Shown here piece after piece: positions 6,796-11,651 of a stretch of 64,000 nt of DNA. Made by a program: the position numbers and the translations under genes. Source of the stretch: Sinomonas gamaensis (GTDB lineage Bacteria; Actinomycetota; Actinomycetes; Actinomycetales; Micrococcaceae); contig NZ_SSCL01000006.1 of assembly GCF_005876955.1 (NCBI RefSeq), positions 62,001-126,000 on the forward strand, in the 5' to 3' direction. The notes under the pieces are model-generated. The model was not told the origin of the DNA, made no database searches, and saw nothing but the letters and a program-made list of their open reading frames with translations. Numbering within the stretch: the first letter of the stretch is position 1; each line of letters opens with the position of its first letter.

Positions 6796-8208
6796 TCAGA
6801 GGCCGTAGGCCTCGAGGAAGCGCAGCCAGACTTCGCTCACCGTGGGGAAGGCTGGGATCGCGTGCCAGAGGCGCTCGAGCGTGACTTCGCCGGTGATCGC
6901 GATCGTCGCGGACTGCAGCAGCTCCGCGACGTCCGGCCCGGCGAAGCACGCGCCCACCAGCGTCTGCCGGTCCTCGTCCACGAGGAAGCGCGCCCACCCC
7001 TCGTAGTCGACGGCGTGCTGCCATGCGCCGGCCACGGAGATCGGAAGGTCGACGGCCCGGACGCGGATCCCATGCTCCCAGGCTTCTTCTTCCGTTAGCC
7101 CGACCATCGCGGCCTCGGGATCGGTGAACATGACCCGTGGGACGGCGAGCTCGTCTGCGGTGCGCGCGTGTCGGCTCCAACGTGACGGCCGCCCGTCGAG
7201 CTCGCCACGCACGCGGGCAACGACCACGTCGCCCGTAATCCGCGCCTGGTACTTGCCCTGGTGCGTGAGCATGGCCCGACCGCAGCAGTCGCCGACCGCG
7301 TAGAGCCACGAGTTCCCGACGACGAGCCCCGTCTCGTCGACTCGCAGCGAGGCAGGTTCGATGCCGAAGGCAGGCAGCCCCAGCCCATCGAGGGCCGGCC
7401 GCCGGCCGGCGGCGACCATCACCTTGGCGACCCCGAGCGTTCGCCCGTCGGGAAGCGCGAGGTGGGCTCCGCCGTCGTCCGTTGGCTCGACGAGCTCCGG
7501 CGAGGTTCCTTCGAGGATCTCCACCCCGTCGCCGGTCAGGCCTGCGCGCACGAGTTCCCGCGCGTCCTCGGGGAACGCGCTCAGGAATGTGCCCCGCGCG
7601 AGCAGCGTGACCTGCGAACCCAGCCGTGCGAACGCCTGCGCGAGCTCCGAGCCGGCGACGCCCGCGCCGAGGATCGCGAGGCTTTCGGGGACCTCGCGGG
7701 TGCTCGTGGCGTCCGCCGTCGTCCAGTAGGGCACCCGGTCGAGCCCGGGAACCTTGGGGACCGAGGGGGTGGAGCCGGTGGCGAGGACGACGGCGTGGCG
7801 CGCCGCGAGCGCGAAGTGGTTGCCGGAGGGGTCGGCGACACTCACGCGCTTCGCCCCCGTGAGACGAGCGCGCCCCCGGACGAGGGCGATGCCGGTGCCG
7901 TCGACCCACTCGACCTGGGATTCGTCGTTCCAGCTGTTGACGGCGTCGGTGCGGTGGTCGAGGACGGCCTGGACGTCGAGGTCGCCGGTGACCGCCTGGC
8001 GCGAGCCGGGAACCCGCCGGGCCGCGTGCAGCGCAGTCCCTGGGCGCAGGAGCGCCTTCGAGGGTTCGCAGGCCCAATAGGAACAGGCGCCGCCGACGAG
8101 ATCGCTTTCGATGAGGGCCGCTGTGAGGCCGCCCTTCACGATGCGGTCTGCTGCGTTCTCGCCGGCCGCACCTGCGCCGATCACAATGACGTCGTACTCG
8201 CTCTCCAC
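6796..8208 (-). CDS. FAD/NAD(P) disulfide-type oxidoreductase
   Basis: 470 residues beginning at a GTG. The FAD-binding motif GAGAAGENAA and the NAD(P) motif ILGAGVAGSELAQAF are intact. The redox disulfide is C42-x4-C47 within ACSYWACEPSK, the usual spacing for lipoamide/mercuric-reductase relatives. The C-terminal active-site region reads IPAFPTVSE where dihydrolipoamide dehydrogenases have HPTxxE, so the catalytic His seems replaced by Phe. It is likely a flavoprotein disulfide reductase with an atypical substrate or transhydrogenase-like action. It is convergent with the alcohol dehydrogenase, with a 9-base gap. Confidence 0.85.
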   Translation of the reverse strand: MESEYDVIVIGAGAAGENAADRIVKGGLTAALIESDLVGGACSYWACEPSKALLRPGTALHAARRVPGSRQAVTGDLDVQAVLDHRTDAVNSWNDESQVEWVDGTGIALVRGRARLTGAKRVSVADPSGNHFALAARHAVVLATGSTPSVPKVPGLDRVPYWTTADATSTREVPESLAILGAGVAGSELAQAFARLGSQVTLLARGTFLSAFPEDARELVRAGLTGDGVEILEGTSPELVEPTDDGGAHLALPDGRTLGVAKVMVAAGRRPALDGLGLPAFGIEPASLRVDETGLVVGNSWLYAVGDCCGRAMLTHQGKYQARITGDVVVARVRGELDGRPSRWSRHARTADELAVPRVMFTDPEAAMVGLTEEEAWEHGIRVRAVDLPISVAGAWQHAVDYEGWARFLVDEDRQTLVGACFAGPDVAELLQSATIAITGEVTLERLWHAIPAFPTVSEVWLRFLEAYGL

Positions 8209-8232: not shown

Positions 8233-8355
8233 TTAGCCTTGCCGGGCCTTGAGACGCGGGTTCTTCTTGTTGATGACGAAGATCCTGCCCCGCCGCCTGA
8301 CCAGCTGGGACCCCGGCTGGTTCTTGAGGGATCGGATCGATGCGCGCACCTTCAT
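8233..8355 (-). CDS. rpmJ: 50S ribosomal protein L36, zinc-free (C-) paralogue
   Basis: This is a 40-residue gene starting [11 protein letters not shown] and ending NPRLKARQG. It contains no cysteine, unlike ordinary 37-residue L36, which carries a zinc ribbon. It is the C- form that replaces the zinc-containing protein in ribosomes during zinc starvation. A Zur-like box lies 20 bases upstream of the start and is shared with the divergent COG0523-like gene. The start ATG at 8355 is preceded by AAAGGAGC. Confidence 0.92.
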
Positions 8356-8374
8356 GCGGTGCTCCTTTCATTAT

Positions 8375-8389
8375 TGGGAACCATTCTCT
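8375..8389. promoter_or_regulatory. Zur-like operator between rpmJ and COG0523-like gene
   Basis: On the minus strand the sequence is AGAGAATGGTTCCCA, close to the actinobacterial Zur consensus TGANAATNRTTNTCA. It sits 20 bases before the L36 start and 48 bases before the divergent start at 8438. A -10-like TAAGAT (8391-8396) for the plus-strand gene adjoins it. Zur-zinc would repress both genes; zinc shortage would release them. The match is by eye. Confidence 0.7.
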
Positions 8390-8437
8390 TTAAGATACAG
8401 TGGCCACCGGATATTCCCGATCTCGGAAGGTGCAGGT

Positions 8438-9427
8438 GTGGTCAAGGTCGTCGGAATCGTAGGGGTCTGCGCCCAGGAGCGCCGTAGGTACACGCGCCGG
8501 CTGGCGGGCGGGCACCGCTGGCCTATCGTCGAGGCACTGCGTTCCGTCCCGCCCTCCCGCCTCGGGGAAAGCCTGAGTGCTGCGGTTGCCGGGGGAGCGC
8601 TTGCTCCGACGCTCCTCTTCGACGCAGGTGACCGGTGGGATGCGCCCGAACTCATCGGCGCGCTGGGCGAAGGAGCGACGGCCGACGACGGCGCTGCTCG
8701 CCTTGCCCAGCTTGTCGCCGTCGTGGACGTGGCGCACCTCTTCGACGATCTCGAGGCGGCGGCGTGCGGCGAGCGGCTGGTCCAGGACGTCGAGTTCGCC
8801 TCGACCGTTGTGCTCGTGAATTGGCAGCCCCTGGCGACTTCCGACCTCTCGATGGTCATGGCACTCGTCAATCATCTGGCCCCCCGTGCCCGGCTGCGGC
8901 TGGACCAGCCGGCAGCGAATCTCGACCTCGACCTGGGTGTCGTCAGACGCGAGCAGGACGGAGCCGGGTGGACGAGGCTCATCAACGGCGAGTTCACGCC
9001 GTACATGACCGACGCGCGGGTGAGCGGCTTCGTGTACGAGAACGTTCGACCCTTCCACGCGGGACGGCTCGCGGACGCGCTCGAAGGCGACATCGGCCAC
9101 GGGCGGTACGGCCGCCTCGTCCGCTCAGCGGGCTTCTGTGCGCTGGCTTCACGCCCTGGACGGGTGGCCCAGTGGTCTCAGGTGGGCTCCGTCGTGGGCA
9201 TCGAGCCGCTGCCCCTGCCCGATGTCTCGCCCCTCCGCGCATCGCCGCCGCTCGCCGTCGGGCAGGAGCTTGCGGTGATCGGCCTGGACCTCGACCGGCC
9301 GGGCCTGACGCGGGCCCTCGATGCGTGCGTGCTCACGGACGGCGAGCTCGCCGAGGGGCCGCTGGCGTGGATGGCCTACCGGGACCCGCTTCCCGAATGG
9401 GACCGCGCCGAGGTGCGGCGCGAGTAG
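8438..9427 (+). CDS. COG0523/CobW-like protein lacking P-loop (Mrf-like candidate)
   Basis: 329 residues from a GTG seven bases after GGAAGG. The C-terminal half matches the CobW/COG0523 C-terminal domain: VSGFVYENVRPFHAGRLAD, RLVRSAGFCALASRPG and VAQWSQVGS. The N-terminus has the expected first strand (VKVVGIVGV) but then CAQERRRYTRRLA instead of a GxxGxGK P-loop, so it is probably not a GTPase. In mycobacteria a COG0523-derived protein encoded with the C- ribosomal proteins (Mrf) helps install the hibernation factor on zinc-starved ribosomes. The neighbouring C- L36 and shared Zur-like box point the same way. That role is inferred, and a metal chaperone is the alternative. Confidence 0.8.
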   Translation: MVKVVGIVGVCAQERRRYTRRLAGGHRWPIVEALRSVPPSRLGESLSAAVAGGALAPTLLFDAGDRWDAPELIGALGEGATADDGAARLAQLVAVVDVAHLFDDLEAAACGERLVQDVEFASTVVLVNWQPLATSDLSMVMALVNHLAPRARLRLDQPAANLDLDLGVVRREQDGAGWTRLINGEFTPYMTDARVSGFVYENVRPFHAGRLADALEGDIGHGRYGRLVRSAGFCALASRPGRVAQWSQVGSVVGIEPLPLPDVSPLRASPPLAVGQELAVIGLDLDRPGLTRALDACVLTDGELAEGPLAWMAYRDPLPEWDRAEVRRE

Positions 9428-9446: not shown

Positions 9447-11621
9447 TCAGACGGCGGCGCCACTCGTGTGGGGGGCGGGGTCGTGGCGCAGGTACTCGCG
9501 TCGGAAGCGGCCCGTGCCGGCGGTCAGAGCGCGCAGCTCGACGGCGTAGCGAATGAGCTCGACGTCCGGCACCTCCGCGTTGATCTCCGACGTCCCCTCG
9601 CCGGCGGAGGTGGTCCCCGTGACCCGCCCGCGCCTCGAGGAGAGATCGCTCAGCACGGTGCCCACGTAGTCGTCCGGAACCTCGATCGTCACCGACGAGA
9701 CAGGTTCGAGGAGCTGGATCTTCGTTGCAGCGGCAGCCTCCCGCAGCGCCAGGGCGCCCGCGGACTGGAACGCCGCGTCGGAGGAATCCACGCTGTGGGC
9801 CTTGCCGCCCACGAGGGTCACACGGATGTCCACCACGGGGAAGCCCGCGGAGACCCCCTTCTGCATCTGAGCCCGCACGCCCTTCTCGATCGAGGGGATG
9901 AAAGTGTTGGGAATGACGCCGCCCACGGTCTTGTCGACGAATTCGAAGCCTGCGCCGCGCTCGAGCGGCTCGACCTCGATGTCGCAGATCGCGTACTGCC
10001 CGTGGCCGCCGGACTGCTTGACGTATCGGCCGTGCCCGGACGCCGGCGCGGCGAAGGTCTCCCGGAGAGGGGTGATCACTTCGACGGTCTGGAGCTTGGT
10101 CCCCTGCTCCCGGAGGCGCTCGAGCACCACGTCCGCGTGGGCTTCGCCCATGCACCACAGCACGAGCTGGTGCGTCTCGGGATTCCGCTCGACCCGCAGA
10201 GTTGGATCGCCCGCCGCGACGCGGGCGAGGTTCTTCGCGAGCGCGTCCTCGTCGCCGTGCGACGCCGCTTCGACGGCCACAGGCATGAGCGGCTCGGGCA
10301 TGTCCCAGGGGCCAACGAGGAGGGGTTGATCCTTCGAGGAAATGGTGTCGCCGGTCTCGGCCGCCGCGAGCTTGGCGACGGCGCAGATGTCGCCGGCGAC
10401 GGCGGCGGGCACCGCGCGAAGGGTCGAGCCGAACGGGGAGTACAGGCGGGCCACCCGCTCGTCGCTGTCGTGGTCAGGGTGGCCGCGGTCGGCGAGCCCG
10501 TGACCGCCCACATGGACCGCGGTGTCGTCCCTGAGCGTCCCGGAGAAGATCCGCACCAGGCACACGCGGCCGAGGAACGGGTCGACGGTAGTGCGGACCA
10601 CCTCGCCGACGAGGGGGCCGTCCGGGTCGCACTTCAGCTTCTTGACGGGCTCACCGTTGAGGTCCGTGACGGGTGGCACCGCGTGCTCTGCCGGCGACGG
10701 GAAGCCCCGCGTGAGCACCTCGAGCAGCTCGGCTGTGCCCACCCCGGTCGTGGCCGCCGTCGGCACCACCGGGAAGAAGGAGCCGCGCGCAACAGCCTTC
10801 TCGAGGTCGTTGATCACCACGTCGAGGCTGATGTCTTCCCCGCCGAGATAGCGATCCATGAGGGTCTCGTCCTCGCTCTCGGCGATGATCCCCTCGAGGA
10901 GTTCGCCGCGGGCAGTCTCCCAGTCGGCCAGCTCTTCTGGGGCGCCGGGCCGCACCGTCGGCTGCAGCTCGCCCTCGGAGTACTCCGAGACATTGCCGGA
11001 GAGGAGCCCGAGGAGGCCCTTGAGGCCGCCCTCGCCGACCGAGGGAACGTAGAGCGGAAGCACCGACTCGCCGAAGGCGCTCTGGCACTGGGCGAGCACT
11101 CCGCTGTAGTCGGCTCGCGGGTGGTCAAGTCGGCTGATGACGACGGCGCGGGGCATCCCCACGCGCTCGCACTCCTCCCAGAGCGCCGTGGTGGCGGCAT
11201 CAACGCCGTCGACCGCGGAGACCACGAACAGCGCGCCGTCCGCGGCCCGCAGCCCCGCCCGCAGCTCGCCCACGAAGTCCGCGTAGCCTGGGGTGTCGAG
11301 GAGGTTCACCTTGATCTCGCCGACGACGACGGGCGCCACCGAGAGCGCGACGGAGCGCTGCTGATGCACCGCGGCGGGATCGGAGTCGCCGACCGTGGTG
11401 CCGTCCGCGATGGACCCCATGCGGTTGATCGCCCCGGTCGAAGCGAGGACGGCCTCGAGCAGCATCGTCTTGCCGGCTCCCGAGTGGCCCACGAGCACCA
11501 CGTTGCGGATGAGCTCGGAGCGGTCCACGGTGGGCGCGGGGCTCGCGGCGTCGGCTCGTTTGACCTCAGATCCTGAGCGCGCCGCGCTCTTCGCCGAGCC
11601 GTTCGTACTTTTGACCGACAT
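9447..11621 (-). CDS. Elongation factor G-like GTPase (EF-G2 type)
   Basis: 724 residues. The chosen ATG at 11621 follows GGAGGTGGTT; an upstream in-frame start has no such signal. Motifs: G1 VGHSGAGKT, G3 DTPGYADF, and G4 reads SRLD instead of NKxD. The switch-I region RSVALSVAPV lacks the canonical RGITI threonine. Domains III-V are complete (GGHGQYAICDIEVEPL, GGVIPNTFIPSIEKG and a final beta-rich domain). This matches the second EF-G-like protein of Actinobacteria rather than the housekeeping FusA, which is normally next to rpsL/tuf. Its role is unproven; ribosome recycling or stress translation are possible. Four 17-base repeats lie upstream. Confidence 0.88.
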   Translation of the reverse strand: MSVKSTNGSAKSAARSGSEVKRADAASPAPTVDRSELIRNVVLVGHSGAGKTMLLEAVLASTGAINRMGSIADGTTVGDSDPAAVHQQRSVALSVAPVVVGEIKVNLLDTPGYADFVGELRAGLRAADGALFVVSAVDGVDAATTALWEECERVGMPRAVVISRLDHPRADYSGVLAQCQSAFGESVLPLYVPSVGEGGLKGLLGLLSGNVSEYSEGELQPTVRPGAPEELADWETARGELLEGIIAESEDETLMDRYLGGEDISLDVVINDLEKAVARGSFFPVVPTAATTGVGTAELLEVLTRGFPSPAEHAVPPVTDLNGEPVKKLKCDPDGPLVGEVVRTTVDPFLGRVCLVRIFSGTLRDDTAVHVGGHGLADRGHPDHDSDERVARLYSPFGSTLRAVPAAVAGDICAVAKLAAAETGDTISSKDQPLLVGPWDMPEPLMPVAVEAASHGDEDALAKNLARVAAGDPTLRVERNPETHQLVLWCMGEAHADVVLERLREQGTKLQTVEVITPLRETFAAPASGHGRYVKQSGGHGQYAICDIEVEPLERGAGFEFVDKTVGGVIPNTFIPSIEKGVRAQMQKGVSAGFPVVDIRVTLVGGKAHSVDSSDAAFQSAGALALREAAAATKIQLLEPVSSVTIEVPDDYVGTVLSDLSSRRGRVTGTTSAGEGTSEINAEVPDVELIRYAVELRALTAGTGRFRREYLRHDPAPHTSGAAV

Positions 11622-11651
11622 AACCACCTCCAGGTCGCGAACGTCCACAGC

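Follow-up and report, generated by a model that had tools for sequence, protein, structure and literature searches.

Mrf directs a hibernation factor to ribosomes of the zinc-free kind, and in COG0523 proteins metal transfer is driven by the CxCC motif and the P-loop. Among the species discussed below, L. xyli is a member of the Micrococcales. In other Actinobacteria, genes for alternative ribosomal proteins are reported to be repressed by Zn-Zur and derepressed when zinc is lost, the alternative form then replacing the zinc-binding one (PMC2823685, PMC6103462), and the Zur regulons given for Mycobacterium, P. acnes, S. coelicolor and L. xyli include ribosomal protein paralogues, with RpmJ among those listed (PMC2823685). 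The published M. smegmatis table assigns a box of its own to each of rpmB (MSMEG_6068) and the Mrf gene (MSMEG_6069; PMC7174638). We found that these two boxes contain one identical 21-mer on opposite strands, which scores 27.4 bits with the other-genera matrix described below, and the zinc-free ribosomal protein gene and the COG0523-like gene of M. smegmatis appear to use one common site. Rv0106 is described as having lost the GTPase motifs while keeping CxSC (PMC2770081).

Here we analyzed a 64-kb stretch of Sinomonas gamaensis DNA (the window) in which a gene for a zinc-free L36 (L36B) lies divergent from a gene for a COG0523-like protein without GTPase motifs (the partner). Like the mycobacterial C- genes with Mrf (MSMEG_6065-6070 / Rv0106), this locus joins a COG0523-like protein and a zinc-free ribosomal protein at one two-way Zur box, and because MSMEG_6068/6069 have the divergent layout around one site, that layout is not new. 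Zur-regulated zinc-free ribosomal proteins, COG0523 partners and a GTPase-less partner are likewise already known. What differs from mycobacteria is which ribosomal protein switches and the sequence family of the partner: the Mrf system has induced second copies of S18, S14, L33, L28 and L31, whereas here it is L36 alone, and the Sinomonas partner, unlike Mrf, lacks a CxxC and by score is nearer to ZigA than to MRF. The Zur-regulated alternative L36 known as rpmJ2 / YkgO is similar in that a Cys-free type B L36 has a box and the C+ L36 does not, but at our locus L36B is divergent from a degenerate COG0523 protein and the other five ribosomal proteins tested exist only as zinc-free types. A linear plasmid of Streptomyces clavifer (L160, 3467-4819) carries a Cys-free L32 gene (rpmF) with a ZigA-type COG0523 gene immediately downstream; this unit also sets a Cys-free ribosomal protein beside a COG0523 gene, but with L32 rather than L36, on the same strand and with P-loop and CxCC intact. 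Among the matches listed from titles and the opening parts of abstracts, we found no description of an L36-only recurrent unit with its own GTPase-less family in a zinc-free background.

Two divergent genes around a Zur-type box

The features of the locus, in window coordinates, are these:

8233-8355, minus strand: rpmJ2 / L36B, zinc-free (C-) ribosomal protein L36, 40 aa, with PF00444 and NF002021 matches
8372-8392, no strand: Zur-type palindrome, 21 bp, common to both genes, best site in the 64-kb window under both the consensus and the matrix, and aligned in two congeners
8374-8379, plus strand: candidate -35 (TTGGGA) of the rightward promoter, inside the box, read by eye
8396-8401, plus strand: candidate -10 (TACAGT) of the rightward promoter, read by eye
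8438-9427, plus strand: COG0523-like protein without GTPase motifs, 329 aa, GTG start, with its CobW_C domain (PF07683) at residues 195-298

The preliminary description had proposed a cysteine-less L36 gene that shares a Zur-like box with a divergent COG0523-like gene, and each of these elements was borne out. The 40 codons of L36B specify no Cys, and the protein matches PF00444 at 66 bits (cut-off 26.1) and the NCBIfam type B L36 model NF002021 at 76.4 bits (cut-off 70). As the window genome also encodes a C+ L36 with three Cys and one His (at G000:C23:329787), both marks of a type B (C-) L36 are present, namely a score above the NF002021 cut-off and a lack of zinc-binding Cys alongside a C+ paralogue. 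The divergent gene scores 46.4 bits against PF07683 (cut-off 22). An ORF of 392 aa that begins at 8249 on its strand overruns L36B; the likely start is instead the GTG at 8438, which is aligned in two congeners. A chance origin of the L36B ORF was considered and dropped. Among three Sinomonas, NG86 dN/dS is 0.06-0.16 for L36B and 0.19-0.25 for the partner, the latter indicating purifying selection, and on account of these values neither gene looks like a pseudogene. On the far side of L36B lies a flavin disulfide reductase gene (6796-8208, minus strand) whose best NCBIfam score, to MerA, is below cut-off; it adjoins L36B in S. albida as well (L005) and was not found at the locus of Sinomonas sp. 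ASV322 (L004, L008). The partner gene converges on that of an EF-G-like protein, EF-G2 (9447-11648, minus strand; NF009377, 1161.7 bits), for which we know of no link to zinc.

The promoter region of the divergon contains a 21-bp palindrome of the 10-1-10 form described for the actinobacterial Zur operon. It matches the published 24-nt Zur consensus, which is mycobacterial (PMC7174638), at 20/24 positions, and is the only site in the window to reach at least 20. To avoid circularity, we built a symmetric matrix from other genera only, training it on 27 boxes that score at least 18 among 29 non-window order-level loci (2 were dropped). With this matrix the palindrome at 8372-8392 scores 26.9 bits and the second-best site of the window 6.7, while 20 block-shuffled windows reach at most 13.6. 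Chance was considered as an explanation of the box and dropped. The -10 candidate reads TACAGT or TACACT in three Sinomonas. A consensus promoter scan found no promoter at its thresholds, so both promoter elements are by-eye inferences; with the candidate -35 lying within the box, Zur would cover it.

Across the genus, the matrix scores 14.1-30.9 bits at 13/13 Sinomonas L36B loci and at most -0.4 at the 15 C+ L36 loci, where no box was found (0/15). The lowest of the L36B values, at L028, is barely over the shuffle maximum. When scored with the published consensus, 11 of these 13 L36B loci have a site of at least 18/24 positioned 15-19 bp from the L36B start; at the other two, the palindrome lies further upstream (G006) or the box is upstream of a COG0523-L36B pair (G008).

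The window genome contains two Fur-family genes. One of them, L118, lies tail to tail with a znuA-znuC-znuB operon, whose end it overlaps, and the site before znuA (21/24 of the consensus, 17.0 bits) is the top site of its 7.5-kb stretch. NCBIfam assigns L118 to general Fur-family models, Zur being among those below cut-off. Compared with the Fur gene that lies near the divergon elsewhere (4 loci compared), L118 shows 41-44% identity and 99-126 bits, and the second Fur gene of the genome, listed at 91 aa, scores 23-31 bits. We call L118 Zur because it sits beside znuACB and is close to the Fur genes found near the divergon elsewhere. The suggestion that the locus is a Zur divergon acting in zinc-starvation remodelling is well supported at the level of sequence, by conservation of the box across genera, by boxes at every Sinomonas L36B locus and at none of the C+ L36 loci, and by the Zur-like gene next to a box-bearing znuACB operon.

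L36 as the switchable ribosomal protein of Sinomonas

Six ribosomal proteins known in both zinc-binding and zinc-free forms were considered, and we searched for the five other than L36 in the same genomes. L28, L31, L33, S14 and S18 are each present above cut-off as a single copy in 15/15 Sinomonas, and these sole copies are zinc-free types throughout: Cys is absent from those of L33, S14, L31 and S18 (for L31, from the sequence after its first few residues), and that of L28 has one. The L33 and S14 genes are in the same cluster as L28. At 45 L28, L31 and S18 loci the matrix reaches at most 9.0 bits (the S18 locus of G012, 20/24 by the consensus; the others score 7.7 or less), which is below the minimum of 14.1 bits at L36B loci. 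That C- paralogues had been missed was considered and dropped, the five families having been searched in all 15 genomes; three S14 matches that fell below cut-off, in G001, G004 and G014, were taken as chance.

Of the six, only L36 keeps both forms here (13/15 genomes), and judging from these counts L36 would be the last switch among the tested ribosomal proteins in Sinomonas. The preliminary description had called the module reduced to two genes and had proposed a search for C- paralogues of L28, L33 and S14. Such a search turns up no second copies, and the characterization as a reduced module was right, because L28, L31, L33, S14 and S18 exist only as zinc-free types.

The genus offers several variants of the locus. 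L36B is present in 13/15 Sinomonas and a CobW_C protein in 4/15, the partner being the only CobW_C match in the window genome. Three Sinomonas have the L36B-partner divergon and 12/15 have no partner, and in 9/15 a box-bearing L36B occurs without any CobW_C protein, so that the L36 swap cannot need the partner. G013 and the divergon genomes have an L36B whose sequence differs from that of the other Sinomonas. Two genomes, G007 (L022) and G014 (L025), have the zinc-binding L36 only, without L36B, and their other five tested proteins are zinc-free types. G008 (L006) encodes a 370-aa Mrf-like COG0523 protein (742-1854) followed on the same strand by L36B (1901-2020), behind one box of 27.2 bits. 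In G013 (L151; 2109-3044 and 3697-3717), one of the nine genomes that have L36B but no CobW_C protein, L36B is divergent from a znuACB operon; a Zur-type site of 30.9 bits precedes L36B and another of 18.6 bits precedes znuA. G012 has a second, canonical COG0523 gene (L155) with P-loop, CVCC and NKCD and an upstream Zur-like site (20/24, 20.7 bits), and since L155 keeps all three motifs, this congener carries both the canonical and the GTPase-less COG0523 types.

A recurrent partner family without GTPase motifs

A scan of the genome contigs of close relatives with the single partner protein found nothing; repeated with an alignment of three sequences, it gave four loci, the two known congeners among them. 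Using a five-partner alignment to search 396 genomes of the order, we obtained matches at E <= 1e-20 in 32 genomes, representing 8/109 genera. Thirty loci of 34 matches were compared, the window included and genomes G244 and G139 left out, and L36B is divergent from the partner in 30/30 of these Micrococcales loci. A box of at least 18/24 is present in 28/30 (the exceptions are L042 at 17 and L067 at 16) and one of at least 20 in 20/30; in control 280-bp intragenic stretches, mostly 2-4 times longer, the corresponding counts are 8/30 and 1/30. When compared with shuffles of their own spacers, 25/30 boxes score better at p <= 0.01, the remainder being L042, L043, L045, L066 and L067. Because one genus, g19, accounts for 21/30 loci and 22/32 positive genomes, the loci are not independent events. 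A zur homologue lies in the 1.5-kb flank at 17/30 order-level loci, 16 of these 17 in g19. Adding the two congeners, L36B adjoins the partner in 32/34 genomes. The exceptions are Kocuria tytonis, which has a box of 29.8 bits before the partner homologue, and Leucobacter tardus, in which the homologue lies among znuABC genes with a box of 25.5 bits; no L36B was found in the flanks examined in either.

Of the features that mark COG0523 / G3E GTPases, the partner retains CobW_C and is devoid of P-loop, CxCC and NKxD. The loss is common to the family: GxxxxGK[ST], NKxD and CxCC are each found in 0/32 members (28 of the 30 order-level loci, the two congeners, Kocuria and Leucobacter; two loci with fragmented matches were left out), and all three occur in L155, the canonical control. 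The cobW GTPase domain PF02492 has no match in the window partner. Among 25 scanned members, CobW_C is found in all 25 and PF02492 faintly in one (E 0.012). A CxxC of any kind is present in 5/32 members and absent from the window protein.

With all three motifs gone and most Sinomonas lacking the gene, the partner could be viewed as a vestige, a decaying COG0523 GTPase kept only through the promoter it has in common with L36B, and the partner matches that fall in two pieces (G295 and G210) or cover only model positions 197-334 (G244) would suit such decay. Against this reading, the partner is under purifying selection among the three Sinomonas and the family has 25 invariant positions over 25 sequences, and we regard it as highly improbable.

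Known relatives of the partner point in two directions. Its best NCBIfam score is to ZigA (NF038288, 98.4 bits, below the equivalog cut-off of 600), and a tblastn search against plasmids gave, among the best 20 of 768 records, ZigA and 'GTP-binding proteins' at 32-37% identity over partner residues ~81-322. While the partner thus shares CobW_C and this level of identity with the zinc metallochaperone GTPases ZigA / YciC, it differs from them in its missing motifs and is ~55-60 residues shorter than three plasmid homologues; set against ZigA-type GTPases from Gordonia, Streptomyces and Tsukamurella, it lacks the switch I/CxCC segment and has a conserved G-x-C-x-x-E-R stretch near the expected P-loop position. 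These similarities would fit a partner that, within the same Zur divergon, serves as a zinc-handling scaffold or chaperone without nucleotide and without ribosome contact, its pairing with L36B being mere co-regulation. A cysteine in the first loop, C11, is conserved across at least 90% of 25 family members, and the Leucobacter homologue in its znuABC cluster fits zinc handling better. Yet the CxCC and P-loop are absent in 32/32 members and all 30 order-level loci compared are tied to L36B, which leaves the zinc-handling role unlikely.

The second direction is Mrf. The preliminary description had called the divergent gene an Mrf-type hibernation helper, and this holds only in part. As in Rv0106 (PMC2770081), the GTPase motifs are lost, and the gene is laid out as in M. 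smegmatis, divergent from a zinc-free ribosomal protein gene around one Zur box; all eight members scanned also match the MRF profile weakly, at 47.6-84.8 bits. However, the window partner is at the lower end of that range, far under the equivalog cut-off of 375 bits for MRF (NF047431), ZigA scores higher in seven of the eight, and the window protein lacks a CxxC where Rv0106 keeps CxSC. Moreover, it is the 370-aa protein of G008, in line with L36B rather than divergent from it, that is the more Mrf-like within Sinomonas (83 bits to MRF, no P-loop, CxxC kept). That the partner is a true Mrf orthologue, which would recruit an HPF/MPY-type hibernation factor to zinc-free ribosomes, is therefore somewhat more doubtful still than a role in zinc handling.

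Remote comparison and structure prediction were less informative. Aligned with hhalign, the partner family matches the Mrf-like G008 protein at 96% probability and one canonical COG0523 protein, L155, insignificantly (5%). A profile search of the PDB with the partner gave no meaningful match (best E 0.19). The AlphaFold2 model, made from five sequences, is poor (mean pLDDT 49), its first ~100 residues being fair (blocks of 66-82); Foldseek on this low-confidence model returned one match at E <= 0.001, to adenylate kinase, and placed E. coli YjiA at rank 33. The model thus gives a weak hint that the fold may be of the P-loop type. We base the homology of the partner to COG0523 proteins on PF07683, the NCBIfam models and tblastn. 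The two deepest forks of the partner protein tree are weak (67/87), for which reason the tree does not settle between descent and transfer.

A possible adaptor for L36 exchange

We consider the locus to be, with a probability of about 0.6, a Zur-controlled zinc-starvation divergon whose partner is an adaptor that works without nucleotide and is connected with the exchange of L36 on ribosomes. When zinc is present, Zn-Zur would sit on the palindrome at 8372-8392 and keep both genes off, and once zinc is exhausted, Zur would be released and both L36B and the partner would be made. L36B would then take the place of the zinc-binding L36 in 50S subunits, whether newly made or remodelled, so that each ribosome spares or frees one zinc. 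We infer Zur binding, derepression and the L36 swap at the divergon from comparison with the systems described above. The partner, as a COG0523 protein that would not bind GTP, would act at or near the ribosome, where it may help L36B in, help the C+ L36 out, or park the altered ribosome, as proposed for Mrf.

The biochemical role of the partner is the most uncertain part of this scheme. We favor a ribosome adaptor because the partner is tied to L36B far more than to transport genes, because the parts that drive metal transfer are lost, and because the layout and the motif loss are Mrf-like. The adaptor step is nevertheless the weakest, as nine congeners have L36B without the partner and the Leucobacter homologue is found with zinc uptake genes. 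A more specific version is also conceivable, though we hold it only tentatively: that a distinct and recurrent pseudo-GTPase family derived from COG0523 is dedicated to L36 and used only in zinc shortage, where it would drive or stabilize L36 exchange without nucleotide or a CxCC zinc site, in lineages whose last zinc-dependent ribosomal switch is L36.

Zinc-starvation remodelling is usually studied in systems in which several proteins switch at once, making the effects of a single switch or of a helper hard to separate. Sinomonas, a soil genus, has one ribosomal protein and one helper at one site, with natural variants that have the helper, lack the helper or lack L36B. If the helper acts on ribosomes, then a COG0523 scaffold would here, as in Mrf, have lost its GTPase and metal sites and yet been retained for work at the ribosome. 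Were this true, part of the large COG0523 family would be recast as adaptors rather than metal chaperones.
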